Shown piece after piece: positions 1-23,586 of a stretch of DNA of 61,922 bases (the first letter of the stretch is position 1; every line of letters begins with the position of its first letter). The DNA is from a virus. Made by a program: the position numbers and the translations under genes. The notes beneath the pieces were generated by a model. That model made no database searches and was not told where the DNA came from. It was given only the letters and a program-made list of their open reading frames with translations. The DNA lies in IMG/VR virus record IMGVR_UViG_3300017952_001659, positions 1 to 61,922 of that record; one strand, written 5' to 3'.

Positions 1-371
1 CCTTCATTCCATAAAAAATAATATATGTAAGGATCGTTAGCATCTAGAGTAGCTTTTAAATAACGTGTAAAAATATTTCGTTGTTTATAGTCACCAAAAT
101 TAGTAGGTAATATTTTATTGCCTTCTATCTTAATAGGATTATCGTCTGGTAATGCTTGATATTCTTCCCATGCCTTGTATATAGGCTTCCAATTAATAGT
201 GTAACTACAATCTTTCCAATCAAACCCGGGTGCCATCCACGTGCCTTCTTTTGCATAATCTCGTGCTAGTGCAAATCCTCGACATATTTCAGGATGCAAA
301 TTTTTGAATCCTTCTATGTCTAAGTAAGGATCTAAGTTAATATACGGTTTTCCGCCAATTCCTCTTATCAT
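1..371 (-). CDS. Unknown protein, N-terminal part (runs off window)
   Basis: An open frame on the minus strand starts at an ATG whose complement is at 369-371 and stays open to base 1, giving about 123 codons with no stop. The product begins MIRGIGGKPYINLDPYLDIE and contains several aromatic-rich stretches (WMAPGFDW, YTINWKPIYKAWEEY, YIYYFLW). I recognise no catalytic motif. It is divergent from the gene at 399, with only 27 bases between the two start codons, and that gap holds a perfect inverted repeat. The position suggests it belongs to the same accessory region as the radical SAM genes. No clear Shine-Dalgarno sequence is visible and the frame stays open upstream of this ATG, so the start is uncertain. 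Confidence 0.6.
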   Translation of the reverse strand, partial: MIRGIGGKPYINLDPYLDIEGFKNLHPEICRGFALARDYAKEGTWMAPGFDWKDCSYTINWKPIYKAWEEYQALPDDNPIKIEGNKILPTNFGDYKQRNIFTRYLKATLDANDPYIYYFLWNE

Positions 372-398: not shown

Positions 399-1091
399 AT
401 GAATACTAAGTTTGAGTATTATTTTAACGACATACCCGGAACTGGACTCTGTAGAAACAATTTAATTTATACAAGTCTTGTTGATTCTAATTTGACTACA
501 TTTGTACAATGGTATTATAATGACGGAGAATACCATAAAGGACAAAATCAAGTAGTTGATCCTAGTCTAATGCAAGAAAAATTTGATAGAGAAGTAAAAT
601 ACTTAACTCTAATGACTGAAAATTTTCCCGAGCTTGTTCCTAAAATAAAAGAGATTGATACTACAAACCGTAAAATTTATTTAGAAATTGACGGAAAAGA
701 TTTTTGGAATCGTGCAGGTTGCTTAACAGAAAATTATGATAATGTGTTACCGGACTGGCAAGATCAAATGATCGAAATAATTAATGCACATAAAAGTTTA
801 GGCCTTCACAAATATTCAATGCATCCTTCAAGTTATTTTGTAATAGATGGAAAACTAAAAAGTATTAATTACTTTTTTACATACCATAACACCGAACCTA
901 ACTTTAGTATTGCAGATGTAGAAAGTCACATATACAGTACACGTCAAGATAAAATGCGAGAGCATTTAGAAACTTTAGGTATTGAGTGGAATACTCCGCA
1001 GACATTCGAAACTATGGATAAATTATGCTGGAATAGTTTTAGAAATAATTATCCTATAGAGTTTATAGAAAGAGTTTTACAAAAAATATGA
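399..1091 (+). CDS. Kinase-like fold protein, probably a pseudokinase
   Basis: The 230-residue product has the layout of a small aminoglycoside-phosphotransferase/protein-kinase-like domain. A helix with a charged FDREVKYL (about 62-69) is followed by a strand pair around VPKIKEI and KIYLEIDG (80-99), then a segment resembling a catalytic loop, LHKYSMHPSSYFVIDGKL (136-153), then KSINYF (154-159) where a DFG-type motif would be. The aspartates expected in the catalytic loop and in DFG are absent: H-K-Y in place of H-x-D, and N-Y-F in place of D-F-G. I therefore read it as inactive or divergent. It overlaps the next gene by 4 bases (ATGA), so the two are probably translated together. The assignment is fold-level only, and an unrelated fold remains possible. 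Confidence 0.5.
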   Translation: MNTKFEYYFNDIPGTGLCRNNLIYTSLVDSNLTTFVQWYYNDGEYHKGQNQVVDPSLMQEKFDREVKYLTLMTENFPELVPKIKEIDTTNRKIYLEIDGKDFWNRAGCLTENYDNVLPDWQDQMIEIINAHKSLGLHKYSMHPSSYFVIDGKLKSINYFFTYHNTEPNFSIADVESHIYSTRQDKMREHLETLGIEWNTPQTFETMDKLCWNSFRNNYPIEFIERVLQKI

Positions 1092-1768
1092 ATTTATACT
1101 TAAATCCAAAATGGCAGAGAATTGGAATTAGTCTTAGTGGAGGAGCAGATAGTGCTTTATTAGCATACCTTATCTTAAAACAAACTAATGCCGAAATATT
1201 TTTTACTACACAAATACGTATGTGGAAGTCGAGACCTTGGCAAGGATATATTGCAAGACAAGTAGTACGTTGGTTTAAATTTAATTTTCCGCACACAATA
1301 CATCACATTGAAGGATTTATTCCTCCAGAAATGGAAGAACCGCATACTACAAATATAAAAGACGAATACGGTAAAATTAAACCTGGTAATAGAATTATAC
1401 TTAGGGCGCATAATGAATATATTGCACACGAACACAAATTAGATGCTTGGTTTGCAGGAGTAAATAAAAATCCAGACATAGAAATACCCGGAGCATTATC
1501 TGAAAGAGACGAAGGTACGTTACCTGTACATATGGAACATATGGGAGTTGACATTTATCATCCTTTCGTGTATACTAGTAAAGACTGGATTATAAAACAG
1601 TACTATGAAAATAAAATAGAAGATTTATTAAATTTAACTCGAAGTTGCGAAGGCGAGTTTGAAGGATTAGATTATACTACATGGACTCCGGGTAAAAATG
1701 TACCCACTTGCGGAGAATGTTTTTGGTGTAAAGAAAGAGAATGGGCTATTAACAAATGTCAAGATTAA
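1088..1768 (+). CDS. QueC-like PP-loop ATPase
   Basis: The protein has 226 residues, close to the usual QueC length. An N-terminal PP-loop SGGADS lies at residues 17-22, where ATP would be bound and the substrate adenylated. The C-terminus carries C187, C208, C211 and C214 in the context TRSCEG...CGECFWCKERE, matching the QueC zinc site (TxSC...CGxCxxCxxR). QueC converts 7-carboxy-7-deazaguanine to preQ0 using ATP and ammonia, and in phages preQ0 can serve DNA modification. The usual partners FolE, QueD and QueE are not in this window, so the substrate here may differ. It overlaps the upstream gene by 4 bases and the downstream SGNH gene by 13. The family call is firm and the exact reaction is not. 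Confidence 0.75.
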   Translation: MNLYLNPKWQRIGISLSGGADSALLAYLILKQTNAEIFFTTQIRMWKSRPWQGYIARQVVRWFKFNFPHTIHHIEGFIPPEMEEPHTTNIKDEYGKIKPGNRIILRAHNEYIAHEHKLDAWFAGVNKNPDIEIPGALSERDEGTLPVHMEHMGVDIYHPFVYTSKDWIIKQYYENKIEDLLNLTRSCEGEFEGLDYTTWTPGKNVPTCGECFWCKEREWAINKCQD

Positions 1769-2343
1769 TTACCTTCGGTTGTTCTTACACTTGGGGAGCC
1801 GGGTTACCTGGAGATGGTCTTTTTCCAAGCAAATTATCATGGCCAGTTTTAGTAGCTGAAGAATTAAACTTAGAGTTAATAAACAAAGGAGAACCTTCTG
1901 CTAGTAACACAGAAATATTATATGAGATTTTAACATTTGATTATAAACCAACAGATATTATTGTAATTATGTGGACACATACACATAGAGATTTAATTTT
2001 TAGTAAATGGGGTGCTAGATTTAAGTCATTAAGAAAAAGATTTAATGCTTCAAAAAAAGATAAATCTTGGCAAAAAATGATGAACAAAACAGATTATAAT
2101 ACAAAAAGTTGGTTGTGTATTCATCATGCAGATCTTTTTTTAAGATCAAAAAATTTAAAATATTTACACTATCCATTTTCTATACACGAGTTGTCTAAAT
2201 GCACAATTAAAGGATTAGAAATTTCAAATTTTTGCAAAGATGGTATGGTTTTGTTAGACAAAGGGACAGATAATTTACATCCTGGTATACGATCTCATAA
2301 AGCTACTAGTAAGAATATAGTTAAGGTATTAAATGAAAAATAA
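1756..2343 (+). CDS. SGNH/GDSL-like hydrolase
   Basis: A 195-residue protein with SGNH-type blocks: ITFGCSYTWGAG with the candidate nucleophile S10, a conserved-looking GEPSASNTEI stretch about 35 residues later (glycine and asparagine of the oxyanion hole), and DNLHPG near the C-terminus giving the D172-x-x-H175 pair. This family hydrolyses esters, often O-acetyl groups on glycans or lipid acyl chains. There is no signal peptide, so it should act in the cytoplasm or be carried on the virion. The start at 1756 overlaps the QueC-like gene by 13 bases, and the end overlaps the next gene by 11 bases, so it belongs to the plus-strand operon. Confidence 0.65.
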   Translation: MSRLITFGCSYTWGAGLPGDGLFPSKLSWPVLVAEELNLELINKGEPSASNTEILYEILTFDYKPTDIIVIMWTHTHRDLIFSKWGARFKSLRKRFNASKKDKSWQKMMNKTDYNTKSWLCIHHADLFLRSKNLKYLHYPFSIHELSKCTIKGLEISNFCKDGMVLLDKGTDNLHPGIRSHKATSKNIVKVLNEK

Positions 2344-3601
2344 ATCGTGTACATTTTGTATGCACCCGTTTACAGGGCTTGCTACACGAGAAGACGGAGC
2401 AATTAAGGTTTGTTGCCGTAGTGCTCCTATTGGATTTATACAAAATGAAACTCTAGAAGAAGCATGGAACAACGATACCATGCGAGAAGTACGCAGGCAA
2501 GTATTAAATAACGAGCGTCCAGAAGTTTGTAAGCCGTGCTTTGACCTAGAAGATCAGGGCGTACAGAGCTTACGACAGCGTCATATAGCAGGGGTTATAC
2601 CAGAAGCACGTATAAACTTGTATCCAGATGCACTAGACGCACTAGACGACAATTATACAATGCCATTTGAGCTTCCTACTATGGAAATTAAGCTCAATAA
2701 TCTCTGTAACCTCAAATGTCGTATGTGCAATCCTTTAGATAGTACACAATGGAAAGACTGGAGTGAGGTAAAACCTTTTTACGAAAAAGAGAATAATATT
2801 CTTATTCCAATTATAGACAAACTTACAGACACACCTGGAAAATATATTGGACCGTTTGACAACAGTGAAAACTGGTGGGCATCCTTTACTAAACTATTGC
2901 CGCACTTCCGCAGAGTAGAATTTGCGGGTGGGGAACCTTTGATGGATCCTTATCATTACAAGATACTTGACATGTTAGCACCTTACGGCGAAAACATAGA
3001 ACTAAAGTATGCTACAAACGGTACTACGCTAGGTATAAAAGGGGGACGCACTATACACGATTATTGGCCTAAGTTTAAATCAATCGCTGTAAACGTAAGT
3101 ATAGACGGTATACACGATGTCTACGAGTACATTAGAGGCAATGGTAAGTTTAGCGAAATAGAAGAAAACATCAAAGTGTTTAAGTCATTTCCTAATGTAA
3201 GTCGTGTAGTAGGTGCGTTTACTGTACAAGCAAACAATATTATGCAGATTGACAAAGTAATAGAATACTTTTTAGAAGAAATGGGTATTGTTTTTTACTC
3301 GCATCGTGTAAACTATCCCATGGCACTATCTGCTCAAGTTATTCCAAACTTTTTAAAAACAATTGTAATTAATAATCTTGAACAAATGAAACACAAAGTA
3401 TTAGGCTATAGTTTAGTTAAAGAGTATGATATAATAAAGCAAGTTACACTACAACAAATACAAGATAATATAAATTTCTTAGAAGCAAAAGACATGCATC
3501 CTACCCATTGGCAAGATTGTGTAAATTTTAATCGTGCGCTAGATAAAACACGTAATCAAGATTTTCTTACTGTAAACCCGGAGTTTGCTCCGTATGTATA
3601 G
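2333..3601 (+). CDS. Radical SAM protein with N-terminal Cys-rich (twitch/SPASM-like) region
   Basis: A 422-residue protein whose radical SAM cluster motif CNLKCRMC is at C125/C129/C132, binding the 4Fe-4S cluster that cleaves S-adenosylmethionine. A second cysteine set lies before it: C9, C27/C28, C66 and C69, in the pattern CMHPFTG...GAIKVCC...VCKPCF. This looks like an auxiliary cluster domain placed N-terminally rather than in the usual C-terminal SPASM/twitch position. After the cluster, EFAGGEPLMDP is the typical GGE motif that contacts SAM. The genes at 5457-6836 and 12159-13433 share this architecture. AAGG lies 8-9 bases before the ATG. The substrate is unknown. Confidence 0.85.
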   Translation: MKNKSCTFCMHPFTGLATREDGAIKVCCRSAPIGFIQNETLEEAWNNDTMREVRRQVLNNERPEVCKPCFDLEDQGVQSLRQRHIAGVIPEARINLYPDALDALDDNYTMPFELPTMEIKLNNLCNLKCRMCNPLDSTQWKDWSEVKPFYEKENNILIPIIDKLTDTPGKYIGPFDNSENWWASFTKLLPHFRRVEFAGGEPLMDPYHYKILDMLAPYGENIELKYATNGTTLGIKGGRTIHDYWPKFKSIAVNVSIDGIHDVYEYIRGNGKFSEIEENIKVFKSFPNVSRVVGAFTVQANNIMQIDKVIEYFLEEMGIVFYSHRVNYPMALSAQVIPNFLKTIVINNLEQMKHKVLGYSLVKEYDIIKQVTLQQIQDNINFLEAKDMHPTHWQDCVNFNRALDKTRNQDFLTVNPEFAPYV

Positions 3602-4505
3602 AATAGAAAGTAGATGGGGTCATCAAGATAGTATACATGTTGAATGGAATATTGGTAAACGCTGTAACCTAGACTGTGCGTATTGTCCTGCTGAAATACA
3701 CGACAATTTTTCACCACACACTGACTTAGATGTTATGGTTAACACAATATACGAATTAGAAAAAATAAACAAACCTATACGTTTAAGTTTAACTGGCGGT
3801 GAACCTACTGTGCATCCTAAAATTAATGATATATTAGAATGTGCTAGTGCTAGACTACAATGGCTAAGTGTTACAACTAATGCATTACGTTCCCCCGAAT
3901 GGTATATTAAACAGCCTGTGGACCAATGGGTGTTTAGTTTACATTTTGACAATGAACATTCTATAAGAGCAACAGAAAATGTTGTTAGATATACACAGTT
4001 GCTTGATATGGAGAGTAAGGATACTAAATTTCAAGTAAACTTAATGTGTCATCATGAATATATGGAAGATGTAAAGGCTGCTGCTATTTTGTTAGATTCT
4101 CATCATGTTCCGTATGTAACTAGACGTATACGCTGGACTAAAGCAGATGACAGAGATTACTTTGACGATATGCGTTATAAAGAAAAAGACCTAGAATGGA
4201 TACTTAGTAAAACTTCAACTGTTAAAGCAAATTGTGTTATCGACGGGGAACACAAAGTACATGCTAATGATATTATTAAGTACAAATGGAATCAATTTGA
4301 AAATTGGACTTGTAATGCAGGGCTAGAAAGTCTAATGATTAACTGGGACGGTGAAGTACATCGTGCTACATGTAGAGTAGGTGGGAGCTTAGGCAATATT
4401 TACGACGGTAGTTTTGAAATACCAAAAGAACCAATTGTTTGTACACGTAAATGGTGTACCTGTGCAGCAGACATTCCGTTGACTAAAGTAAACGTTGTTT
4501 CCTAG
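3594..4505 (+). CDS. Radical SAM protein with C-terminal SPASM-like cysteines
   Basis: I place the start at ATG 3594, giving 303 residues. A TTG at 3585 is in frame, but GGAG at 3580-3583 is spaced correctly only for 3594. The CNLDCAYC motif (C24/C28/C31) binds the SAM-cleaving cluster, and LTGGEPTVHP follows as the GGE motif. The C-terminus carries C240, C260, C283, C288 and C290 in a SPASM-like arrangement, including NWDGEVHRATC and CTRKWCTC. It overlaps the preceding radical SAM gene by 8 bases. Its last 23 bases overlap the end of the convergent radical SAM gene on the other strand. The family at 4483 and 7428 is closely similar in layout. The substrate is unknown. Confidence 0.85.
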   Translation: MYRIESRWGHQDSIHVEWNIGKRCNLDCAYCPAEIHDNFSPHTDLDVMVNTIYELEKINKPIRLSLTGGEPTVHPKINDILECASARLQWLSVTTNALRSPEWYIKQPVDQWVFSLHFDNEHSIRATENVVRYTQLLDMESKDTKFQVNLMCHHEYMEDVKAAAILLDSHHVPYVTRRIRWTKADDRDYFDDMRYKEKDLEWILSKTSTVKANCVIDGEHKVHANDIIKYKWNQFENWTCNAGLESLMINWDGEVHRATCRVGGSLGNIYDGSFEIPKEPIVCTRKWCTCAADIPLTKVNVVS

Positions 4506-5460
4506 CATTTGTTTCTGGTTGACAATCACACACTCCTTGTTTCCTGCAAATAGTAGGTATTATTGTTGGAGCAAACTTGTTAATAAAATCTTCATCATAA
4601 ATGTTATAGCATGTATCTAAATTATAAATTGGTTGTCCACAGCCTCCTCTAATATCACCAGTTTTATCAATAAAGAAAGTATCTATTCCAATATTACATT
4701 CCCAACCTGTAAAAATATTTTTATTGTTTAGCGATAGCCAGTTACGTGGAACTTCTTGTTCTGTTTTATCAGAAAAAATTACTGTAGGATTATTTCTAGG
4801 TAACTTCTCAGCACCGAGCCAATATTCTTTGTTAGGCCAACGCTTTAAAGAATTGCTAAGATAGTCTTTTTGTTCTTGTGTATATTTTTGTTTATCATTG
4901 TGTACTTCAAGTGCAGTAATTGGCCATTCATATTTGCTTTTCTTAAGTGCTTCAACTATAGAAACGCATTTGTCCCAAACAGTTGGATCCATTAATACCA
5001 TTCCATTCACAGTTTTATTTTTAGTGTATAAAATATCACCAACTTCTGCAATGTGTGCAGGATCAACTCTTTCGTGATGACAACTTAACATAGTATGGTC
5101 AACATAATCGCCATACTCGTTCCACCATCGTATAGTTCTACTTCCATTAGAACTCATACTAATAACACACTTATGTTCTTCGCTAAAATATTTTACAAAA
5201 GTGCCAAACTCTCTCCATAATGTAGGTTCACCGCCGATTATATGTAGATGTATTTCACGTTTATTTCCATTACTTTTATAATAATCAATAATATGACTAA
5301 GATTATCTTTTATTCTTTCAAACTTAGGCCATGGTGTATCACCTTCGTGATATCCTGGAAAACAATACCAGCAATTATAGTTACAAATATTACTTAAAAA
5401 TAATTCTATCCTTAAAATATCTTTAGGTATATTTGATTCTATTCTAATTATGTCTTTCAT
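4483..5460 (-). CDS. Radical SAM protein with C-terminal SPASM-like cysteines
   Basis: The 325-residue product has CNYNCWYC (C26/C30/C33) and IIGGEPTLW as the SAM cluster and GGE motifs. The C-terminal cysteines C255, C274, C284, C305, C311 and C313 resemble those of the convergent neighbour, with FIDKTGDIRGGC matching the SPASM entry pattern. Start and upstream stop overlap as ATGA at 5457-5460, so it is probably coupled to the longer radical SAM gene before it. It is the last gene of the minus-strand accessory operon and ends inside the convergent gene at 4505. The substrate is unknown. Confidence 0.85.
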   Translation of the reverse strand: MKDIIRIESNIPKDILRIELFLSNICNYNCWYCFPGYHEGDTPWPKFERIKDNLSHIIDYYKSNGNKREIHLHIIGGEPTLWREFGTFVKYFSEEHKCVISMSSNGSRTIRWWNEYGDYVDHTMLSCHHERVDPAHIAEVGDILYTKNKTVNGMVLMDPTVWDKCVSIVEALKKSKYEWPITALEVHNDKQKYTQEQKDYLSNSLKRWPNKEYWLGAEKLPRNNPTVIFSDKTEQEVPRNWLSLNNKNIFTGWECNIGIDTFFIDKTGDIRGGCGQPIYNLDTCYNIYDEDFINKFAPTIIPTICRKQGVCDCQPETNARKQRLL

Positions 5461-6836
5461 AGCAAATGCTCTAACTCTGGAAAAATACTTGAAGCTGATA
5501 AACCTCGTATATTGTCTAGTTTGTTTACATATTCTTTAAAACCTGATAACAACCGGCTGTTGTCATATTTGTGCATATAATTTAAAATGCCTTCCCACTG
5601 ATTCCAACCTTTTGGATTTTTAACCCAAAAATCATCATCTTGAGTATAATTGTCCCACAACCATTGTTTTAGTTCATCAAATTTTTGTTGTACTTCTTGT
5701 TTATCCTTTTCTGGAAGTATTGAAATATTAAGAAATGTTGGAATATGTACTAGGTGTGCATTAACTAGTCCGCCGCCCATTACGTGTCCGTCAATAGTTC
5801 CTATATTCATTTTTTTAAAATTACTGTTTACTTTCCATTTTATAAAATCAGGTATATGTTTTATATTAAAAATTTGTATAGCTGTTGCTATGCTAACATG
5901 AATATTATCAGGCGTATTATCAAGTAAGTGCAGTGTGCGTTCTACATCTTTAAAACTTGTTGGATATCTTATATACTCGTCTCTTTCAAAACAAGCATCT
6001 ATACTTACAGCAAATTTTACCTTTTTGAATTTACTCCAAATATTAATTAATTCTTCATCAACAAGTATACCATTTGAGTTATATCGAAGTAATATGTTTT
6101 GCGCATAGCCTTGACGTATGATTTCTTCTAAAAAAGTTTTATGTTCTTTAATCATTAACGGTTCGCCGCCTGCAAAGTACACTTGCTTTAGATTAGGTAT
6201 TTGTTCATACAACTCGTCCCAAAATTTTCCTTCTTCATACCATTTGTTGTTAAACCCCTTTTTGTCCCAAGTCATTTGATTTTTAACTTCGGGGTCTTGG
6301 AGCACTGGTATAAGTTTTTTCCAATCACCTACCCATTTGCTACTATCATGAGGTGAACACATTACACACTTAATATTACAAGTATGTCCTAAGCGTAAAT
6401 CTAAATATTGTAAACGACTAGGAACAGTACCATCTTCTTCTGTTTGTTGTATTAATTCTTCAACATCTAAACCTTCATCTTGTATCCAAAAGCCTGTTTC
6501 CCAAATACGTTTACTTACAATTCCTTGATCTTCTTCTTTAAAACATCCTGTACAACTTGCTGGTATATTACCTTCTAGCATAGTTTTACGAACACTACAC
6601 ATATACTTGTTATTAAATGCTTCTAACGGAGCAGTGTGTGCAAAGTTAGCAGGTTCTCCGTCCTCATTTTTAACCAATCCAATTTTATGATCAAAACCTG
6701 CTCCACTAGCATTTGATGTACAACACAATCTCATATCGCCGTTAGGGCGAGTGGCTAAATGTATCCACGGCAAAATACAAAATGTTGGTGAGCCTGTTAT
6801 ATCTTCAAGCTGTTTTTTATATTTTTCTATTGCCAT
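5457..6836 (-). CDS. Radical SAM protein with N-terminal Cys-rich (twitch/SPASM-like) region
   Basis: The 459-residue product starts with an auxiliary-cluster-like cysteine set: C20 in FCILPWIHLAT, C38/C39 in DMRLCC, and C95/C98 in SCTGCFKEED. The radical SAM motif CNIKCVMC follows at C153/C157/C160, then YFAGGEPLMI. This is the same permuted layout as the genes at 2333 and 12159, with the shared opening FCIxPWIHxAT and a (D/E)xGIVSKR-type stretch after the second CxxC. Start codon and upstream stop share one base (TAATG at 6836). It sits between a methyltransferase and a short radical SAM gene, suggesting work in one pathway. The substrate cannot be inferred. Confidence 0.85.
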   Translation of the reverse strand: MAIEKYKKQLEDITGSPTFCILPWIHLATRPNGDMRLCCTSNASGAGFDHKIGLVKNEDGEPANFAHTAPLEAFNNKYMCSVRKTMLEGNIPASCTGCFKEEDQGIVSKRIWETGFWIQDEGLDVEELIQQTEEDGTVPSRLQYLDLRLGHTCNIKCVMCSPHDSSKWVGDWKKLIPVLQDPEVKNQMTWDKKGFNNKWYEEGKFWDELYEQIPNLKQVYFAGGEPLMIKEHKTFLEEIIRQGYAQNILLRYNSNGILVDEELINIWSKFKKVKFAVSIDACFERDEYIRYPTSFKDVERTLHLLDNTPDNIHVSIATAIQIFNIKHIPDFIKWKVNSNFKKMNIGTIDGHVMGGGLVNAHLVHIPTFLNISILPEKDKQEVQQKFDELKQWLWDNYTQDDDFWVKNPKGWNQWEGILNYMHKYDNSRLLSGFKEYVNKLDNIRGLSASSIFPELEHLL

Positions 6837-7438
6837 TAGCTGCTTCTTTTTCCAATTATCATGTATCTATTATACAAAGGCAAAGATAATGTATCTTTGT
6901 ATATAGGATTTATTTTACTCATTCTTACAAAATCATCAATATCAAACGCACATCTAATGTGTTCTTCAATATCAGTAAAATTATTACTTTGTAATACAAT
7001 CAACGAATCTGCTGGTACTAAATCTAACCATGCTTCATACTGTTCTTGCGTTAAATGTTCGCAACTTGTATTAATAATAATATCCGCACCATAGTAATAT
7101 TTAGACATGTCAGCAGTAATAGCTTGAAACTTACCATCAATGTGATATCTTTTGTTTATAGTATTTGCAACTTCTTCACATTCAGGGTCTATATCAATAC
7201 TACTGATTGTAGTGATAGGAATGTTACTATTAAAAAGTAAACTAGCAAGTACACCATTCCAACCTGCACATATTTCAATAGAATTATCATCAAGTTCTAT
7301 ATGTTCTTGTAATTTTTCTATAAGCCATATTTTTGAATTTATTTGACCTTTCCAAAAACTTTCTAAGGTACGGTATCTGTCTTCGCTGTTTCGAATTGCG
7401 TCCATCCAAAATAATATGTCCTGTATGTCAACTTTCAT
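6836..7438 (-). CDS. Class I SAM-dependent methyltransferase-like protein
   Basis: The 200-residue protein has a Rossmann-type methyltransferase core: motif I at residues 54-64 (IEICAGWNGVL), an acidic strand end IDIDPE at 81-86 that would bind the SAM ribose, AITADM at about 106-111, and a motif IV-like INTSCEHLT at 122-130. The glycine loop has AGWNG in place of the usual GxGxG, so cofactor binding is likely but not certain. It lies inside the radical SAM operon, overlapping its upstream neighbour by 11 bases and its downstream neighbour by one. Its target is not evident. A spermidine-synthase-like or nucleobase methyltransferase role cannot be excluded. Confidence 0.6.
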   Translation of the reverse strand: MKVDIQDILFWMDAIRNSEDRYRTLESFWKGQINSKIWLIEKLQEHIELDDNSIEICAGWNGVLASLLFNSNIPITTISSIDIDPECEEVANTINKRYHIDGKFQAITADMSKYYYGADIIINTSCEHLTQEQYEAWLDLVPADSLIVLQSNNFTDIEEHIRCAFDIDDFVRMSKINPIYKDTLSLPLYNRYMIIGKRSS

Positions 7439-8435
7439 TTTTTACCTTTGGCAATTTTGAATCTGCACTACTAACACATGTTGGAGTAATACATTTACGC
7501 GGTTCTTTAAATATTTCAAATCCTTCACTAAGTGTTCCAATTGGCTCATCATGGCAACTATAGCTACGTTTAACTTCATTTTCACGTATTACAATACCTT
7601 GATAGCCTGCATTACAAGTCCATCCTTGAAACTTATTAAATCCAAACGCATTAAATCTTTCTGCTTGATCTATATAATATGTATTTCCTTTACTGTCTAA
7701 GAGTTCAACTTGTAACAAAGGAATTAACTTTTTGTATCTATCTGGGATTTGTTGTGGGAATCCTGTTTGCATTCTTCCAATTTGTTCAGTTGTGTATCCA
7801 GATACAACATAGGATGCAGTAGGATCGGACTGGGGTTTAAGTGTGACATTGATACCTCTATCGGCAAACCGCTCACAGCGTTCGTATAATTCGTCAAACA
7901 TTTCTGGAACCATAACTTGATTGATTGTGACAAACGTTTCATCGTTCATTAACTGGAGGCACTTGTCTCCAAACTCCTGTTCTTTTGCAAACTCTGCGTG
8001 GTAACTTGCTGTTATACTCCTACGCTCTAGAGTTTTAGTATTGTCTAACCATCTACTCCACCATTTGCTTCCTGGCGAAAGATTTGTAGTCATGTGTATA
8101 CTCTGATACCCGGGTGCTGTATCACTACAGTAATGATCTATGATCTCCCCAAAGTATTTATAGGCTGTTGGTTCACCACCGCTAAAACTGAAGTGGAAAT
8201 CTGTAAAACCATTTGCACGAGCCTGTGCTTTGATGCTGTCAAGGGTGTTTAAGTAAATTTTTAAATCTTGGTGGTCTGGGGTACTAGATCTAGCGTATGG
8301 CCAGCAATATGAGCAGTTATAATTACAAAATCTAGCCAGAATCCACGAAACTGTAAAAAGATGGCTCTTTAGGAGGGTTTTCTGCCCAAACTCTGTAATA
8401 TTATCCCACGGTATGTCTTGAAAATTATTGTTCAT
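7428..8435 (-). CDS. Radical SAM protein with C-terminal SPASM-like cysteines
   Basis: I place the start at the ATG ending at 8435 (335 residues, beginning MNNNFQDIPW), because it forms an ATGA overlap with the upstream stop and has AAAGAAA before it. An in-frame ATG 30 bases further up lies inside the neighbour. CNYNCSYC is at C37/C41/C44 and FSGGEPTAYK follows. The C-terminal cysteines C274, C294, C315 and C320 match the spacing of C240/C260/C283/C288 in the gene at 3594, so these are paralogues. GWTCNAG is shared almost letter for letter with NWTCNAG of that gene. Confidence 0.85.
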   Translation of the reverse strand: MNNNFQDIPWDNITEFGQKTLLKSHLFTVSWILARFCNYNCSYCWPYARSSTPDHQDLKIYLNTLDSIKAQARANGFTDFHFSFSGGEPTAYKYFGEIIDHYCSDTAPGYQSIHMTTNLSPGSKWWSRWLDNTKTLERRSITASYHAEFAKEQEFGDKCLQLMNDETFVTINQVMVPEMFDELYERCERFADRGINVTLKPQSDPTASYVVSGYTTEQIGRMQTGFPQQIPDRYKKLIPLLQVELLDSKGNTYYIDQAERFNAFGFNKFQGWTCNAGYQGIVIRENEVKRSYSCHDEPIGTLSEGFEIFKEPRKCITPTCVSSADSKLPKVKNES

Positions 8436-9478
8436 TTTCTTTGATCGTATACACTTTTTGAACACGACTTAACACAAGTCATGCACTTATCTTTTCCTTG
8501 CCAGTACTCTGGTAATAACTTAAATAATATTTTATCAGTATGCAAAACACCGTCTTGACAATTTGGTAAACCAACTCGTTGTATTATTTCCTTTGTATTG
8601 TCTACTGCTAAATTACGCAAAGTATGTATTGGTAATTTTTCTTCAATATGGTTTTCTAGATAATCACTTCCTAACCAACAACACGGAAAAATATTTCCGT
8701 AAGGATCTATATAAACACTTTGGTCTGTCTGACATAACGGGTTAATTGTTGCATTAGATAAAACGTTTTCTCTAATATTTTTATCAACTAGTTTATCTAA
8801 CTCTAAATTAGGAGTTTTTTTAAATTTTGAACGCTGTGCAGGTTCTAAATAATATATTACTTCACCATTATCGTTGTGTACTTCAAATTTATCTATATTA
8901 TAAAATCTCGAAGTACTAATAAAATTAATTTTTTCAACACCTAAATTTAATATATATTTTTCAAGTTCTTCTACGTCATGTTCGTTATGTGCAAACACAA
9001 GACTATCTACTCTTGCTTTTCCTCCTGCATCAACAAATGCACGTAAATTTTCAATTACTTTATCAAACTTTGTATTTTTACGATATAGTTCATGCTTACC
9101 CTTAAAGCCGTCTACAGCAAATATAACTTCGACATTTTGTTTTGCAAGTTTGCGCCACCATTCTGTATTACGCATACCTCCGTTAGTATGTATTGCAAGT
9201 CTAGCAGTTGGATTGCACTCTCGAACATAAGAATAAATTTCTAAACAATCTTTTGCAAATGCAGGATCACCGTAGTTGCCGCAACTGTAAAAATTATCTA
9301 GTTGTGCTAAAAAGTGTTTAGGAAACCATTCTTTAAATTGTTCAATACTAATATCGCCATTACGTATAAAAGGACGAGTTTTGCCACCATTAAAATTTCT
9401 AGCACACATTGGGCATTGTGCTTGACACTTATCTGTTAGTTCAATGTGAACTTGTTTTATCTTATATACTGGCTGCAT
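8432..9478 (-). CDS. Radical SAM/SPASM protein (classical order)
   Basis: The 348-residue product has the radical SAM motif CQAQCPMC at C18/C22/C25 right after a VHIELTDK strand. The C-terminal half carries a SPASM-type arrangement: PLCQTDQSVYIDPYGNIFPCCW, a cysteine at about 307, and C332-x2-C335-x3-C339. This is the usual order for maturases such as those of the sactipeptide and anaerobic sulfatase type, and it differs from its six neighbours. The GGE position reads YSCGNYGDPAF, which is GNYGDP-like rather than GGEP. It overlaps the upstream glycosyltransferase gene by 17 bases. The substrate is unknown. Confidence 0.85.
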   Translation of the reverse strand: MQPVYKIKQVHIELTDKCQAQCPMCARNFNGGKTRPFIRNGDISIEQFKEWFPKHFLAQLDNFYSCGNYGDPAFAKDCLEIYSYVRECNPTARLAIHTNGGMRNTEWWRKLAKQNVEVIFAVDGFKGKHELYRKNTKFDKVIENLRAFVDAGGKARVDSLVFAHNEHDVEELEKYILNLGVEKINFISTSRFYNIDKFEVHNDNGEVIYYLEPAQRSKFKKTPNLELDKLVDKNIRENVLSNATINPLCQTDQSVYIDPYGNIFPCCWLGSDYLENHIEEKLPIHTLRNLAVDNTKEIIQRVGLPNCQDGVLHTDKILFKLLPEYWQGKDKCMTCVKSCSKSVYDQRK

Positions 9479-10145
9479 TAAATTGTTCCTCTAGCCAGTC
9501 AAAGTCATTTATAAGTTTTAACGCAGCATCATTATTAGAATTTACTGTACCGTATTCTTTTCCAGCTAGTGCTCCGCTAATTGCCCATTTACCATTTTTA
9601 CGTTCTTCGCCTACACTACACCAAATTTTTAATCTAGATTCTGTTTCTTCGCTTACTTGTCCTTCAATTACTTTTGACGACAATTTAACACATTCTCTAA
9701 ATGCACTACGCCAAGAACTATAAGGGTCTGTATTAAAGGAGGTATAATTTGATATTTGTTCAACTACTTTAAACTTATCGCTTATACTAGTTGTCATATC
9801 AGTTTTACTAGTATCCATATTAATTGTTAATTTACGAGGTAATAACTTTACTCCGCCATAGCCGTAAATTAAATCGTTAACAGGATTTTGACTGCGCCAT
9901 ACGTGTACAGTATCTAAATCCCAGTCTGGAACTACATAATCAAAATTAAAGTTGTCTACAATGAGAGCATCAGCGTCTACTATCCAAACCATTTTTGTTA
10001 GGCATTTTTTAGCAGCAGCAATATGGGCTTGGTGTATTCCTTTTACTCCGTTAATACGTTTAGCAACAGGAAACCGTTTTTTTAGTTTTTCGTAATTTGT
10101 GTCTGCATAACGTTCATTATAACTTATAAAGACTATATCGTACAT
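9462..10145 (-). CDS. Glycosyltransferase-like protein (GT-A type)
   Basis: The 227-residue protein opens with a strand and FISYNE (nucleotide-sugar binding side of a GT-A fold) and has a candidate metal-binding D57-A-D59 in VWIVDADALIV. Later stretches include YGYGGVKLLPR and a WRSAFRECVKLSS helix. The gene at 14695-15624 is a paralogue, sharing the RxxGVKG motif, the DxD position, NGLRYGNGGLKCWPK and WRAGFREGVKLA. Families like this occur in marine T4-like phages, usually without known substrate. It lies two bases downstream of the nucleotide-sugar dehydrogenase gene, which may provide the donor. Confidence 0.6.
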   Translation of the reverse strand: MYDIVFISYNERYADTNYEKLKKRFPVAKRINGVKGIHQAHIAAAKKCLTKMVWIVDADALIVDNFNFDYVVPDWDLDTVHVWRSQNPVNDLIYGYGGVKLLPRKLTINMDTSKTDMTTSISDKFKVVEQISNYTSFNTDPYSSWRSAFRECVKLSSKVIEGQVSEETESRLKIWCSVGEERKNGKWAISGALAGKEYGTVNSNNDAALKLINDFDWLEEQFNAASI

Positions 10146-10147
10146 GT

Positions 10148-11374
10148 TTATTTTTTTCTAGTGTTGCCATAATGAACAACTTCTATACCTTCTAGTTTTG
10201 GCATAGTCCTCCAAGGATCAACAATTACACTACCTGTTGTAGGAGTGAAGTACATTTCATCATCAGTAACACTAACTCCTGTGCCTGAATAAGTTACTTT
10301 AGCATTATGTGCCATTAATACTACAGCAGGTTCATCATCAACAGTTGTATCTCCTGTAAGAGGATCTGCATATGTTAATTTTACGCCTGCGGCTTCTACA
10401 AAGTGTCCGACTAATTCACTATAACTTCCTATAGTGTACGGTACGTAAGGCTTATATGCTCTGCCATGAATTACTACAGGCAGATTCTTTTCTTGTGCGA
10501 TAGATATTAATTTTTCAGCCATGTTTTTTGCTTGCATATCTCTACTATGCATAATAGCATGGAATAAATCATAACCTAAATCTAGTTTTTCTGCTAGATA
10601 TCTTAGTGCAATGTTGTCTCTAGGATGACATGCACCTGCATCACCTAAACCAGCAGTTAAATAACGAGGACCTGTAATACGTTGTGTTGCTTTTTTAAGT
10701 GCATCTGTAACTACATCAACGTTTATATTACCATTACGTTCAGCAACGTCTTGAATCATATTAACTAAACCAATTTTAGCACTAATAAATGTATTATAAA
10801 AAACTTTAATTGCTTCTGCTTCGTCCCATGTTCCAATATTTACAATTGGATTGTTTTCCATTAGCGGCTGATAAAAATCTGTAAGTATTTTTGCATCGCC
10901 TGTTTCTGAACCATCATCCGTTCCAATAATTAAACATTCAGGATTTACCATATCCCATTTGACTGATCCCATAGCAATTAAATAAGGATTATAGATAAAT
11001 CTTGCATTTGTAATACAAGGACGTAAATGTTCTCTAACTGTGCCTGGTAAAACTGTACTAATAAGAACAACCAATTGCTGTTGTGTTACATATTTGTTAA
11101 TTTCAGTTAGAACATCTTGGACAATACTGTAATCAAAATCTTTTGTAGGTAAGTTAGCAATAGGTTTACTTCCACCGTATTCTTCACTGTGCGGAGTTGG
11201 CACAGCTACAAAAATTAAATCTGCATTTTGAACTGCTTCTTCAACGGTATTTAATAACGGAATTTTTGCACTAGGATCCTTTACAACATCATATCCAACA
11301 ACATTGTAATGATGACTCATAACCTCTGCACAAGGTAATCCTAATTTTCCGCATCCTATCATTGCTACGTTCAT
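10148..11374 (-). CDS. UDP-glucose/GDP-mannose dehydrogenase family protein
   Basis: The 408-residue protein starts with an NAD-binding MIGCGKLGLPCAE (GxGxxG at 7-12). It continues with DLIFVAVPTP, STVLPGTV and EAIKVFYNTFISAKIGLVN, all typical of nucleotide-sugar dehydrogenases. The catalytic cysteine is C249 in AGLGDAGACHPRD. The expected reaction is two-step NAD-dependent oxidation of a sugar nucleotide, such as UDP-glucose to UDP-glucuronate. Length is slightly under the family norm. AGAGGA lies just before the ATG, and an AT-rich TATAAAAATA stretch precedes it, a possible weak promoter. The gap to the upstream SGNH gene is 44 bases, the largest inside this operon. Confidence 0.85.
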   Translation of the reverse strand: MNVAMIGCGKLGLPCAEVMSHHYNVVGYDVVKDPSAKIPLLNTVEEAVQNADLIFVAVPTPHSEEYGGSKPIANLPTKDFDYSIVQDVLTEINKYVTQQQLVVLISTVLPGTVREHLRPCITNARFIYNPYLIAMGSVKWDMVNPECLIIGTDDGSETGDAKILTDFYQPLMENNPIVNIGTWDEAEAIKVFYNTFISAKIGLVNMIQDVAERNGNINVDVVTDALKKATQRITGPRYLTAGLGDAGACHPRDNIALRYLAEKLDLGYDLFHAIMHSRDMQAKNMAEKLISIAQEKNLPVVIHGRAYKPYVPYTIGSYSELVGHFVEAAGVKLTYADPLTGDTTVDDEPAVVLMAHNAKVTYSGTGVSVTDDEMYFTPTTGSVIVDPWRTMPKLEGIEVVHYGNTRKK

Positions 11375-11418
11375 ATTTTTTCCTCTTATATTTTTATAGT
11401 TATCTAAGTATTTTTAAT

Positions 11419-12159
11419 TTATTTTAGATTGTGAAGAATTTGTTGTGTCCAAAGATCAATACCTTTCCTAGAAGGATGGTTATCTGTATCATATCCAAAT
11501 ACATCTCCTTGAAATTTGCGTTGTAATCTTAGTTTTTGTCCAGAACCTGTGATTACTGCACTATTATCTTGGCTGTACGTTGGTATTGATTTTTCGTAAT
11601 CATAAGTTGCTGAAAAAATACTGCTCTTATAACTAGGATCTCTTAGTAGGTTATAAAACGACTCACACAAAACATTCAAATAAGGATATTGTTTTGTTAA
11701 ACTTAAATCAATGTCGCTACATCCGCCAATTAAATTTATTTTAGTTTTATATGTTTTTCCGATTTCGTTTAAGTTATAGTAAAAAAGATCTATTAAAGTT
11801 TTATTAAATTCTTTATAATTGCCATTTTTAAATATGTGACTAAAATTAGCTGTATTATGATTTATCTTAGATATAACACTTCTCATTGGTTCTGTTTGTA
11901 TTACTAATATACAAGTTTTAGGTTTTCTAAAAGATTTTACAGTGTAAGATTCTAATACACCTCTTAAGGATTCTAGTATAAATTCATTACTTACGCCACC
12001 TTGAGAAAAATTTTCAATTTCTGAAAAATATTCTAATAGTTTTTCGCTGAAATAATTGTCGCCATTGTCGATAAAAGATCCGTCAGGCGTTGTCCAAGCG
12101 CCTCTACCCCAGCTGTCTCCAAAAATTAAAGCTCTGTGATACTTTGATGCTTTCCACAT
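11419..12159 (-). CDS. SGNH-like hydrolase
   Basis: The 246-residue protein begins with ALIFGDSWGRGAW, the block-I pattern with candidate nucleophile S16, and has NFSQGGVSNEFI where the glycine and asparagine blocks are expected. Near the C-terminus TDNHPSRKG provides H228 and D226. The usual spacing is D-x-x-H, so the acid may be displaced here or come from D224. The start shares one base with the upstream stop (TAATG at 12159), so it is probably coupled to the radical SAM gene before it. The role could be deacylation of a glycan made by neighbouring enzymes, which is inference. Confidence 0.55.
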   Translation of the reverse strand: MWKASKYHRALIFGDSWGRGAWTTPDGSFIDNGDNYFSEKLLEYFSEIENFSQGGVSNEFILESLRGVLESYTVKSFRKPKTCILVIQTEPMRSVISKINHNTANFSHIFKNGNYKEFNKTLIDLFYYNLNEIGKTYKTKINLIGGCSDIDLSLTKQYPYLNVLCESFYNLLRDPSYKSSIFSATYDYEKSIPTYSQDNSAVITGSGQKLRLQRKFQGDVFGYDTDNHPSRKGIDLWTQQILHNLK

Positions 12160-13433
12160 TATATTAACTCATAAATTTCTGGAAATTTAACAGGACGCAT
12201 ATTGTCTAAGGTTTTTAAATAATCAAGTGTTTGGTCTAACTTATCACTCCAGTCTTCACTATTCATAAAATCTATTAATCCGCTCCATTGTTGTACTTCG
12301 CTGTTGTCTGGATATTTTGCCATAAAGTTTCTTAACTTTTCTTCTACTCGTTTTTTTGATTCAGCAGATAAAACCTTTGTACAAAGATATTGAGGCCAAT
12401 GTAGTGTAGCAGCGTGAAATAGTCCGTTACGTCTTGTTCTTTTTCCTATTTTTTTAAAGTTTTGCGACCAAAGCCATTCAGCAAATTCTGGTAGCCAATA
12501 GATGTTAAGTGCCTGAACAGTAGTGTTAATGTCTACAATAATGTCGCCGCCAGTAGTATTATCAAATGTTTTTAAATTCTTTACTACTTCATCCCACTTT
12601 GAAGGATATCTAATATAAGAATTTAAATCTTCGTGCGCATCTAAACTTACCATAATGTGTGTTTTCTTAAAGTGAGTCCAAAGCTCTAACAATTCTTCGT
12701 CTACAACAGTGGCATTTGTATGATAACGTATTTCTACATTTTTAGCATGATCAATTTCTACAAGATATTTTATTAAGTCTTTGTGTTGTTTAATTAGTAG
12801 AGGCTCTCCTCCTGCAAAAATAAGATCTCTAATATTATGTACATCTTTATAAAAGCTATCCCAAAACGCTTGGTTTCTATACCATTCGAACTGTTCAACA
12901 ACAATATTACTTTTATGTTCCCAATCCCACTTAGCTTCACTAGTTAAATTTTTTGCAAGTATTTTAGAATGATTAAGCCATTTACTGCTATCATGTGGTC
13001 TACACATTATACACTGTAAATTACAAGTATTGCCTAATCTAAAATCAACACTAACAATGCCGCTATCTATAGAACCGTCTTCATTTGTTTCTGCAACAAT
13101 TTGTCTTAGTTCATTTATTTTTATAGGGCTCCATTGATTTGCCCAAACATCGTTTTCGTTCTGTCTATGACTTCTGACTCCAGCAGCTTCTTCTTTATAA
13201 CAACTATTACAGTACTTGACAGGTTCATTGTTGAGCATCTTTTTGCGAACTTCTTTGTATTGCGGACTATTCCAAATTTCTTCCCAAGTCATATTATTAA
13301 GATTTAATTCGTGTATAGGAGAAGCAACACAACATAGTTGCACTGCGCCGTTTGTTTGTGTTGCACAATGTATCCACGGCATTATACAAAATTTTTCTGT
13401 GGATTTTAATCTATCAAAAAGTGGTTTTGTCAT
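12159..13433 (-). CDS. Radical SAM protein with N-terminal Cys-rich (twitch/SPASM-like) region
   Basis: The 424-residue product has C16 in FCIMPWIHCAT, C34/C35 in VQLCC, and C75/C78 in YCNSCYKEE. The radical SAM motif CNLQCIMC follows at C137/C141/C144 in RLGNTCNLQCIMCRPHDSSKW, then IFAGGEPLLIKQH. The match to the 5457-6836 protein extends across the whole length (RLGHTCNIKCVMCSPHDSSKW there), so the two are clear paralogues. It is separated from the other radical SAM genes by the dehydrogenase, one glycosyltransferase and an SGNH gene, which argues for one functional region rather than a chance insertion. Confidence 0.85.
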   Translation of the reverse strand: MTKPLFDRLKSTEKFCIMPWIHCATQTNGAVQLCCVASPIHELNLNNMTWEEIWNSPQYKEVRKKMLNNEPVKYCNSCYKEEAAGVRSHRQNENDVWANQWSPIKINELRQIVAETNEDGSIDSGIVSVDFRLGNTCNLQCIMCRPHDSSKWLNHSKILAKNLTSEAKWDWEHKSNIVVEQFEWYRNQAFWDSFYKDVHNIRDLIFAGGEPLLIKQHKDLIKYLVEIDHAKNVEIRYHTNATVVDEELLELWTHFKKTHIMVSLDAHEDLNSYIRYPSKWDEVVKNLKTFDNTTGGDIIVDINTTVQALNIYWLPEFAEWLWSQNFKKIGKRTRRNGLFHAATLHWPQYLCTKVLSAESKKRVEEKLRNFMAKYPDNSEVQQWSGLIDFMNSEDWSDKLDQTLDYLKTLDNMRPVKFPEIYELI

Positions 13434-13436: not shown

Positions 13437-14693
13437 CTATTCCATAAGTGCATTCATTAAATCTTCTTTGAGATTTTTATATATTGTAACATCGTGTCTT
13501 TCTTTTAGCAATCTATAATTATGTTCAAATATAGGTTTCATTTCTATCATAAGTTTGTTTAATTCTTCATGAGTCCTGCTTATAAAAGTGTTTATACTAG
13601 TAATAGCCATTTTTAGTCTTGTTTTATCGTCTAGTACATCGTCGTAGGATTCGTCTATATAGTCTCCAAATGTTTTATAGCCTAACTCTTTAAGTAATTT
13701 TACTGTTCCAGGGCGAGCAATTGCAACAAAAGGTTGCATAAAAACAATAGGCTTAAACATTTTTTCACTTAAAAATAAAGTATCTTGTCCTTGAGCTTTG
13801 TTTTCAAAAAATGTTTCTGTTACAATATACAAATAACTATCATAATATTTTCTTATTTTTCCCCATTCGTTTGATGCAGGATTTTGAACTTCAGGATTTA
13901 TTCCATCATTGTATGTTAACGGAATTAACGGCTTTACTTCGTTGATATATTTTTCTTTTAGATCTGGATAGTCTTGGTAAAAACAATCTTCAACCCAATC
14001 AGTATAATCTTTGCCGTATCCTGCAGACTTAGCACAGGTTAAAATTCCTTGTTTTTTTACATCAAATAAACTCGTTACTGTTGCATATCTATGTATCGAA
14101 GGTCTTCTATTTAAACATATAAATTTATGTGTTCGAGGACGCTCTACAGCATTCATAAATGTGTTATAGTGTGTATCTCCGTTATAGTTTCCGTATATTT
14201 GCCGTTCCCAAGTATTAAAAGTTACTGTTTTTACAGTAGGATGAGGATTATAATTTCCTGATAAAAAAACAACATGTTTTTCTTTTAGGTCATATTTAGA
14301 TTTTAATATGTCTAAAAGACTATCCCACCAAGTCCATGTCCATCCTTCAAATGGACAAAGAAGCAATATTTTACAATTACCTTTTTTAATTTGTTCAATA
14401 ATTTCAGGTTCTATCTCAACTTGATCAAATACAGTTTCTATTGACCAAAGACTAAGTGGTATTGGATAATAAAATTTTGGTGCTTTTTTTGTAAACTTAT
14501 TACGCTTGGGTATTTTAGAAATAGGTTTATAAACAAGTTCAAAATCATTACCAAACACTGCATAAAGATGTGTTGTGTCTACTAAATCCACTTGAGGATT
14601 AGCTGTATGCTTCCGGTATAACTTTTTAGTAAATCCGTTAACATAAGGAAGTTTATTTTTTCGAGGTTTTATGTCTACATAAATTGGAATCAT
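13437..14693 (-). CDS. Putative glycosyltransferase-like protein
   Basis: The 418-residue protein lacks a motif I can assign with certainty. Two stretches recall a family common in marine and algal viruses: FICLNRRPSIHRYATVTSLF in the middle, and SEKMFKPIVFMQPFVAIA followed by LKELGYKTFGDYIDESYD towards the C-terminus. The second resembles the donor-binding region of fucosyltransferase-like and GT-B type enzymes (TEKxxxP pattern). No signal peptide or membrane segment is visible. It is tightly packed, with a 1-base gap upstream and a 3-base gap downstream, between a glycosyltransferase and a radical SAM gene. The function call rests on pattern memory and context. Confidence 0.45.
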   Translation of the reverse strand: MIPIYVDIKPRKNKLPYVNGFTKKLYRKHTANPQVDLVDTTHLYAVFGNDFELVYKPISKIPKRNKFTKKAPKFYYPIPLSLWSIETVFDQVEIEPEIIEQIKKGNCKILLLCPFEGWTWTWWDSLLDILKSKYDLKEKHVVFLSGNYNPHPTVKTVTFNTWERQIYGNYNGDTHYNTFMNAVERPRTHKFICLNRRPSIHRYATVTSLFDVKKQGILTCAKSAGYGKDYTDWVEDCFYQDYPDLKEKYINEVKPLIPLTYNDGINPEVQNPASNEWGKIRKYYDSYLYIVTETFFENKAQGQDTLFLSEKMFKPIVFMQPFVAIARPGTVKLLKELGYKTFGDYIDESYDDVLDDKTRLKMAITSINTFISRTHEELNKLMIEMKPIFEHNYRLLKERHDVTIYKNLKEDLMNALME

Positions 14694-23553: not shown

Positions 23554-23578
23554 CTACATCTCTCTTTTTTAATTATAG

Positions 23579-23586
23579 TATTTATT
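23579..23586 (-). promoter_or_regulatory. Candidate late promoter AATAAATA
   Basis: On the minus strand AATAAATA lies 26 bases before the ATG of the Ig-array gene, the same spacing as the boxes before 26065 and 49677. It matches T4's TATAAATA at seven positions and gp55 is encoded in this window. A 6-bp stem TTAGAA/TTCTAA with a T5 loop lies just upstream, after the previous gene. Confidence 0.45.

Follow-up and report, generated by a model that had tools for sequence, protein, structure and literature searches.

A recurring island of radical SAM genes on the tail side of marine T4-like phage genomes

The IMG/VR virus record IMGVR_UViG_3300017952_001659, analysed here over its positions 1 to 61,922 (the window, the whole stretch of 61,922 nucleotides), carries an island of seven radical S-adenosylmethionine (radical SAM, rSAM) genes that recurs, with several of its neighbours, in related phages. 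A preliminary description made from the sequence alone had placed these genes within about 11 kb of a T4-like phage and had noted a GGEP motif in most of their products. All seven open reading frames were confirmed, each exceeding the PF04055 gathering score (35.5 to 48.7 bits versus 29.5) and containing CX3CX2C, and GGEP indeed follows the cysteine cluster in six of them, the protein without it being 8432. Genes are named below by their first coordinate, and the rSAM genes are as follows:

2333..3601, plus strand: rA1, N_Twi_rSAM type; core
3594..4505 (open from 3585), plus strand: rB1, PF04055, C-terminal Cys cluster; core
4483..5460, minus strand: rB2, PF04055; core, fast-evolving
5457..6836, minus strand: rA2, N_Twi_rSAM type; core, shared with Bdellovibrionota
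7428..8435, minus strand: rB3, PF04055; most conserved member, with a twitch-like C-terminal four-Cys site
8432..9478, minus strand: rC, PF04055; without GGEP, C-terminal SPASM-like Cys
12159..13433, minus strand: rA3, N_Twi_rSAM type; accessory

The division into three architectures, likewise proposed earlier, is borne out. Additional cysteines lie N-terminal to the rSAM core in 2333, 5457 and 12159 (A-type), which score 327, 388 and 374 bits over the whole protein with NF033640 (N_Twi_rSAM; cut-off 170), and C-terminal to it in 3594, 4483 and 7428 (B-type), whereas 8432 represents a type of its own, in which a weak match to SPASM at the C terminus stays under its cut-off (16.9 bits against 21.5). 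As for subfamily membership, three of the seven thus fall into a known family, N_Twi_rSAM, whose model is named after a domain and not after a function, the function being unknown. The other four fit no named subfamily: none reaches an NCBIfam cut-off among the matches listed, and with NF033640 itself 4483, 7428 and 8432 score at most 44.3 bits and 3594 scores 18.1 bits. Prokaryotic viperin (NF038283) was rejected, the best score being 47.8 bits (4483) against the required 180, and so was, on scores, QueE membership of the rSAM genes; weak QueE-like PHROG matches were obtained for 3594, 4483 and 12159 (2.7e-6 to 3.3e-5).

Relatives were fetched via two seeds, the rSAM gene 7428 (80 of at least 598 loci retained) and the PP-loop ATPase gene 1088 (80 of 231), and loci sharing a 200-base stretch were merged, which reduced 181 loci to 65 groups. 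Co-occurrence was counted in loci having 8 kb on both sides of the seed (22 of 80 for 7428, giving 13 groups; 44 of 80 for the PP-loop gene, giving 27 groups), as genes within 8 kb of the seed, with one locus per group and identity cut-offs of our own setting (floors of 30% for the 4483 type and 33% for the 8432 type). Recurrence was judged by a threshold fixed beforehand, at least four of the window's seven rSAM genes within this distance, and such sets were found in 21 of the 27 PP-loop groups and 9 of the 13 groups of 7428. At least four rSAM genes of any kind occur in 27/27 and 10/13 groups, respectively. These rSAM counts are lower bounds, because some rSAM genes (B12-type) escape the three profiles used; the B12-type examples in loci L051 and L103 pass PF04055. 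Two large proteins of another locus, L050:14042-15589 and L050:2837-4798, also look like B12-type rSAM proteins by eye and are uncounted by the profiles used.

Around the PP-loop gene, the 2333 and 3594 types are present in all 27 groups, the 5457 type in 21, the 4483 type in 19 and the 8432 type in 15. The low numbers in this set for the glycosyltransferase GT1 (9462), the dehydrogenase (10148), 11419 and 12159 (6, 0, 0 and 0 of 27) say little, because in the window these genes are over 8 kb away from their seed. Around 7428, the 9462 and 6836 types occur in 13 of 13 groups, followed by the 8432 (11), 5457 (10), 4483 (9), 3594 (8) and 2333 (6) types, the PP-loop gene (4) and the dehydrogenase (3). 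Moreover, gene order recurs among the loci. As far as gene content can tell, these data support the assignment of the seven genes to one recurring, co-inherited island. The preliminary description had gone further and proposed a single multistep pathway. Its core, a co-inherited multi-enzyme system, stands, but the 12159 type is found in one of the 13 groups of 7428, namely that of the window itself, the two half-operons are separable (~26 kb apart on one contig, in L107 and L065), and accessory gene families vary widely, many being confined to few of the 65 groups.

In the tree of B-type proteins (127, reduced from 508), 3594, 4483 and 7428 fall into separate groups with support of 99, 99 and 100, and two further phage groups are present. 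Therefore, they look like old, distinct enzymes and not recent copies. In a quick tree of a reduced A-type set (88 rows from 387 proteins), the group of 5457 has a support of 99 and mixes phage and chromosomal rows, which suggests exchange, while the best relative of 12159 is 41% identical. In an alignment of 25 relatives, the most conserved member, rB3, is 62–84% identical to that of the window, a higher level than for GT1 or 6836. The structure model of rB3 (predicted local distance difference test, pLDDT, 81) matches BlsE, SkfB, anSME, MoaA and viperin all within ~1 Z. Protein similarity searches of annotated phages gave no match for 7428, 1088 and 14695, and weak ones (22–25% identity) for 5457, 8432 and 2333.

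The rSAM genes are accompanied by the following genes:

3..371, minus strand: edge-cut gene, candidate 2-oxoglutarate (2OG)-Fe(II) oxygenase; ~271 amino acids in relatives, H-x-D and later H and R
399..1091, plus strand: kinase-fold protein, putative pseudokinase; family profile against PDB, kinase TTK 3e-5
1088..1768, plus strand: PP-loop ATPase, QueC-like; PHROG 4e-8, invariant four-Cys C-terminal site
1756..2343, plus strand: SGNH-hydrolase-like by motif only; no Pfam match; accessory, 4/27 PP-loop groups
6836..7438, minus strand: class-I-methyltransferase-like by motif only; core; no Pfam or PDB profile match
9462..10145, minus strand: GT1, GT-A-fold glycosyltransferase; VDADA motif; core
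10148..11374, minus strand: UDP-glucose/GDP-mannose dehydrogenase; PF03721, PF00984, phrog_9148 4e-91; accessory
11419..12159, minus strand: SGNH-hydrolase-like by motif only; no Pfam match; accessory, 1/13 groups of rB3
13437..14693, minus strand: member of a diverse family recurring near islands; no Pfam, PHROG or PDB match
14695..15624, minus strand: GT2, paralogue of GT1; aligned with GT1 at 32%
16918..17760, minus strand: GT8-type glycosyltransferase; joint profile with 17757, glycogenin 1.4e-7 (PDB)
17757..18608, minus strand: GT8-type glycosyltransferase; joint profile with 16918, glycogenin 1.4e-7 (PDB)
18595..18951, minus strand: small protein keeping a constant order with the GT8 pair, also in L079, L084, L214 and L240

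Of the labels that these neighbours had been given earlier, dehydrogenase, PP-loop ATPase (QueC-like) and glycosyltransferase (by its GT-A model) are retained, but methyltransferase and SGNH hydrolase are motifs seen by eye and have no family match. Between 399 and 14693 adjoining genes are separated by only −23 to +44 bp, negative values being overlaps, and the island of the window therefore offers no space for a separate gene encoding a precursor peptide. Among predicted proteins of at least 60 amino acids in the marine loci, no precursor of the kind used in the biosynthesis of ribosomally synthesised and post-translationally modified peptides (RiPPs) was recognised either. The PP-loop family is invariant in 29 rows at S17, G18, G19, D21 and S22 and at C187, C208, C211 and C214; the combination of SGGxDS with a C-terminal four-Cys metal site is what we take to be the QueC motif. 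Membership of 1088 in QueC was nevertheless rejected, since Pfam QueC gives 19.9 bits against a cut-off of 22, and the family profile retrieved one unrelated PDB match (E 0.35). The protein encoded by 399, whose family is found in 22/27 PP-loop groups, has lost the catalytic Asp and DFG as judged by eye. The family of 3..371, present in 21/27, has invariant H178, D180, H237 and R250 in an alignment of 20 relatives; it has no Pfam match (one relative searched) and no PDB profile match, the 2OG-Fe(II) name being a reading of the motif. GT1 has no Pfam match and its PDB profile search was empty, but its model (pLDDT 91.6) has the GT-A fold, with B4GALNT1 as the best structural match in the PDB (Z 11.5, 2.8 Å over 135 residues); nucleotidyltransferases such as IspD and MobA also reach Z 10–11. 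The 13437 protein is possibly another glycosyltransferase, an identity that is a guess.

The accessory complement of related phages is richer. PF05118 hydroxylase-like genes occur in 15 of 16 longer virus records (12 over the cut-off) and in none of 14 controls. Locus L017 carries a tryptophan halogenase (PF04820, 7.5e-93) and an amidinotransferase, both held by a cassette inserted between core genes (L017:14872-19678). L161:438-1493 encodes a phage amidinotransferase whose closest PDB entry is the inosamine-phosphate amidinotransferase 1bwd (7.6e-95), presumably StrB1.

Beyond these genes, the island is adjoined by virion genes:

19057..24568, minus strand: two related virion-type proteins of 1498 and 316 amino acids; adjoin the island, candidate acceptors
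24578..49677, minus strand: tail-fibre, giant virion and gp6-type genes; upstream of the island, by PHROG; order as in PA5oct and Atu_ph07

The giant virion gene (30743-46204, 5153 amino acids) is akin to jumbo-phage giant virion proteins, with ~30% identity over 76% of a 1400-residue piece in the best records. The T4-like assignment is supported by baseplate, late-sigma and SbcCD-type genes identified by PHROG, but the gp6-type protein of the window is closest to those of jumbo phages (34–37% among the matches listed). T4 gene numbers such as gp6 are our own presumed assignments.

The position of the island was followed in the 16 longer records, which were chosen by length and are not independent: judging from shared groups or identical matches, the pairs G001/G011, G002/G009 and G005/G006 nearly duplicate each other, and G016 is almost a copy of the phage of the window. 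The window stands in for G011 in the counts of the A-type Fe-S (iron–sulphur) carrier, PF05118, the gp6-type protein and the 23618-type virion protein. All 16 records hold 7–25 PF04055 genes, and in five records with complete gene lists the main rSAM run spans ~26, 37, 37, 56 and 62 kb, two of the records having one or two strays in addition; in one record all 13 rSAM genes lie inside 143–169 kb of 201 kb. The gp6-type protein is present in 12 of the 16 records, and the main island is downstream of it in 12 of 12, as far as listed. It starts 26–33 kb downstream in the window and four other complete-list records, and in seven partial-list records the nearest rSAM gene among those listed is 29–43 kb downstream. 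Relatives of the 23618-type virion protein occur in 14 of the 16 records, and in the five complete-list ones the closest rSAM gene is 4–5 kb away. In the Pseudomonas jumbo phage PA5oct, the relative of the virion-type protein, gp360, is annotated 'ESI-MS/MS' and lies among tail-fibre and baseplate genes. The positions of the gp6- and 23618-type genes therefore place the island on the tail side. Furthermore, the minus-strand half of the island is co-directional with the late virion genes, and the whole has the layout of a host-recognition cluster, that is, a variable region with glycosyltransferases downstream of baseplate and tail-fibre genes. Fibres with GxxTG repeats were found by pattern search in 0/65 groups. 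The T4 late promoter core TATAAATA is rarer than chance in the whole window (2 found versus 13.1 expected) and so lends no support to T4-type late control.

The system appears to be soluble. None of the 21 window genes between 1 and 18951 encodes two or more membrane segments predicted by hydropathy, and one of 1221 proteins does in the 65 groups, counted with one locus each. Among the controls, a PAP2 protein scored 3 segments, and of two proteins annotated as two-span one reached 2 and the other 1, so that the scan somewhat underestimates spans. A similar picture is seen in loci of Bdellovibrionota, where multi-span proteins make up 4 of 227 inside the rSAM spans versus 25 of 191 outside, a count that takes two regions twice (L188 with L210-L211, and L203 with L214). 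The scarcity of multi-span proteins argues against export of a surface polymer and for a cytosolic acceptor, and the acceptor is probably cytosolic. Serotype conversion of the GtrABC or Wzx/Wzy type was rejected, as multi-span carrier, flippase and polymerase genes are almost absent by the same scan.

A cellular counterpart exists in some Bdellovibrionota. Scanning genomes with exact peptides of the 7428 family confirmed 20 loci, 18 titled as Bdellovibrionota, one unspecified and one labelled 'Rickettsiales'; other phyla may be missed, because the scan needed exact short peptides. The 'Rickettsiales' locus (L198) was rejected as chromosomal, since its gene order is that of a phage contig in a bin. 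By eye, a phage contig in a 'Rickettsiales' bin (L240-L241, G019:C6) also holds a carbamoyltransferase-like gene and parts resembling a tripartite tricarboxylate transporter. In the 20 loci, 5457-like genes (at least 40% identity) were found 17 times, 8432-like genes 17 times (L198 included), 9462/14695-like genes 10 times and 6836-like genes 8 times. With 17 of 290 sampled Bdellovibrionota genomes positive, the 7428 family is a minority trait in the phylum. Four genomes tested, one of them mis-binned, have 5–20 N_Twi_rSAM matches each, compared with 0/14 controls; one Bdellovibrionota chromosome carries 13 N_Twi_rSAM genes in ~30 kb (L208-L209, G020:C1:738000-777999). Neighbours in the cellular loci include family-2 glycosyltransferases (11/82) and QueC-like proteins (3/82). 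A locus of one bacterial contig, L214 (G017:C21:120000-139884), lies beside pheS/pheT and combines 7428-, 23618-, 18595-, 17757-, 16918- and GT2-type genes, the last five types in phage order, before the contig end cuts it. In 16 genomes without the 7428 family, the 23618 type is absent from all 16.

Phages with many rSAM genes are already in print (2010, 2017 and 2020), so that the earlier remark on isolated ones in marine phages understated the record, as far as the published texts were available. The T4-like Campylobacter phages CP220 and CPt10 have 11 and 12 rSAM proteins, respectively, in interchangeable modules (Timms 2010, PMC2853527), and the marine T4-like genome TARA_ERS488813_N000010 (183 kb) has 12 rSAM genes, framed as Fe-S metabolism in the available text (PMC5332604). 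The latter resembles the window by its description, but in our set an A-type Fe-S carrier, sought as a sign of active rSAM enzymes, was found in only 1/16 longer records. CP220 and CPt10 are similar to the phage of the window in being T4-like and in combining five rSAM genes and a glycine amidinotransferase in one swappable block, according to the available part of that report (PMC2853527). Moreover, two of their genes, a few kb from a possible baseplate gene, are noted as nucleotide-sugar transferases, and the CP220 amidinotransferase is 30% identical to that of L161. They differ in that their rSAM proteins are 22–34% identical to those of the window, and BLAST over 24.7 kb detected no relative of the PP-loop gene, GT1 or 6836. 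Pelagimyophages and cyanomyophages have a hypervariable host-recognition region close to the tail fibres that contains glycosyltransferases, UDP-glucose dehydrogenase and rSAM cassettes, although the available text describes no conserved multi-rSAM core (PMC7029224) and the gp6 of the window is closest to jumbo phages instead. Virion glycosylation in mycobacteriophages is cited in the accessible part of PMC12619734. In the open-access literature (subscription papers and preprints being outside the scope), as far as its texts were available, we did not find the conserved core, the tail-side place, the missing membrane step or the Bdellovibrionota counterpart described.

The cultured jumbo phages Atu_ph07 and Phosso (a Sinorhizobium phage) share with the marine phages the order gp6, giant virion gene, fibre gene and rSAM genes; the Atu_ph07 block contains four CX3CX2C proteins and the Phosso stretch five. 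Radical SAM goes unmentioned in the available main text on Atu_ph07 (PMC6102473). In both phages the rSAM genes flank a CXXX-tailed protein (L243:11119-12009 in Atu_ph07, L244:25415-26335 in Phosso), with a cupin-like gene adjoining by eye. The two proteins are 42% identical overall, and their last 16 residues, CHxSCHASCHxSRSRR, are identical at 14 of 16 positions. The tail was not found in other phages: 3 of 50,697 records match, all of them Atu_ph07 or Phosso. CXXX-repeat tails recall rSAM-modified peptide systems; a search of the open-access literature for the term found nothing. Here, this protein is the most direct hint that rSAM enzymes in this position act on a protein tail, and an indirect one for the marine island.

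We tentatively favour, at somewhat less than an even chance, the reading that a cytosolic island, co-inherited behind the tail-fibre genes of a large marine T4-like phage family, modifies mainly distal virion proteins of the tail-fibre type. The acceptors would be soluble distal virion proteins modified in the cytosol of the infected cell before assembly. The rSAM enzymes, together with iron-dependent oxygenases, would change unreactive C-H positions either in protein side chains of the acceptor or in its sugars, the PP-loop enzyme would activate a carboxylate, and soluble GT-A and GT8 glycosyltransferases would add sugars. The small core would carry out the invariant steps, and swappable cassettes (the dehydrogenase, SGNH proteins, 12159-type rSAM, halogenase and amidinotransferase) would vary the decoration, as expected of a trait under host-recognition pressure. 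The genes themselves, their recurrence and position, the scarcity of predicted membrane proteins and the GT-A fold are observations; the acceptor, the reaction of each enzyme and the choice between protein and sugar as rSAM substrate are inferred. A broader version is rather doubtful: a workshop for fibre maturation, in which rSAM enzymes, oxygenases and soluble glycosyltransferases rebuild host-binding proteins, would carry receptor binding beyond the twenty amino acids and alter it by exchange of cassettes, Bdellovibrionota using the same core for their own prey-facing proteins.

Several observations weigh against the tail-fibre reading. Only 9/27 PP-loop groups have rB3 within 8 kb and 12/27 have the 6836 type. 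The structure model of 7428 does not discriminate between peptide and sugar rSAM enzymes, and PF05118 is without a match in the window. Predicted proteins of at least 60 amino acids in the marine loci include no CXXX-tailed protein. Comparison with other phages adds to this: the rSAM genes of Atu_ph07 match the marine profiles weakly (best 2.7e-13) and have no GT1 or GT8 profile match beside them, and in PA5oct, which shares the tail genes, no rSAM gene was found in the 41 kb examined, so that the tail does not need the island. Finally, only two of 16 cell genomes tested that carry the 7428 family have the 23618 type, and one of these two is a phage contig (G119 and G212, of the 17 such genomes, were left out of this test); the 23618 type is therefore not a general partner.

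Among the alternatives, the island might remodel the host surface during infection, its rSAM enzymes tailoring sugars of the lipopolysaccharide core or O-chain and thereby excluding competing phages. We consider this unlikely, although PF05118 presumably also holds the lipid A hydroxylase LpxO, a gene annotated as pagP lies 3–6 kb from the rSAM cluster of Vibrio phage K566, and glycosyltransferases of pelagimyophages, GT8 above all, and UDP-glucose 6-dehydrogenase have been attributed to O-chain change in the available text of PMC7029224. The co-direction of late virion genes with the minus-strand half does not fit such a role, nor does the near absence of multi-span proteins, unlike the flippases, polymerases and polyprenyl-phosphate transferases expected of it, in a hydropathy scan that undercalled one control; this scarcity may still be compatible with core sugars being added on the inner face. 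Even less likely is that there is no single pathway and that a recombination hot spot has piled up unrelated rSAM and sugar genes. The restriction of 12159 to the window's own group, the divergence of rB2, the many accessory families in few groups, the half-operons that can lie ~26 kb apart and the modules reported as interchangeable in CP220/CPt10 (PMC2853527, as far as available) would fit such a history, but the constant association of rA1 and rB1 with the PP-loop gene (27/27) and of GT1 and 6836 with rB3 (13/13) would not, and neither would the 62–84% identity of rB3.

Two further proposals concern other products. A small soluble product, such as a guanidino-aminocyclitol or peptide-like inhibitor that would act inside the cell or once it has lysed, would agree with the inosamine-phosphate-type amidinotransferase of L161, with the tryptophan halogenase and second amidinotransferase of L017, and with the occurrence of rSAM enzymes in aminoglycoside pathways. 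We regard it as improbable, since amidinotransferase and halogenase clusters are found in at most 5 of the 65 groups, hydropathy reveals no multi-span exporter among the window genes, and the island leaves no gap for a separate precursor gene. Hypermodification of phage DNA or nucleotides by a QueE/QueC-like route is suggested by the QueC-like PP-loop gene and the weak QueE-like PHROG matches of 3594, 4483 and 12159, but it appears highly improbable: no NCBIfam QueE or QueC model reaches its cut-off among the matches listed, the core is also present in Bdellovibrionota chromosomes, and the island adjoins tail genes.

Although reports of phages rich in rSAM genes go back to 2010, the literature examined, as far as its texts were available, gives no tested explanation for them. 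With a defined core, gene order and tail-side place, what was a catalogue of odd genes becomes a single system that can be tested, and the Bdellovibrionota chromosomes offer a second, cellular setting in which to find its product. If the acceptor is a tail fibre, host recognition in these phages would involve rSAM-installed modifications that are invisible to structure prediction from sequence, and these enzymes would open up a new source of catalysts for C-H modification.

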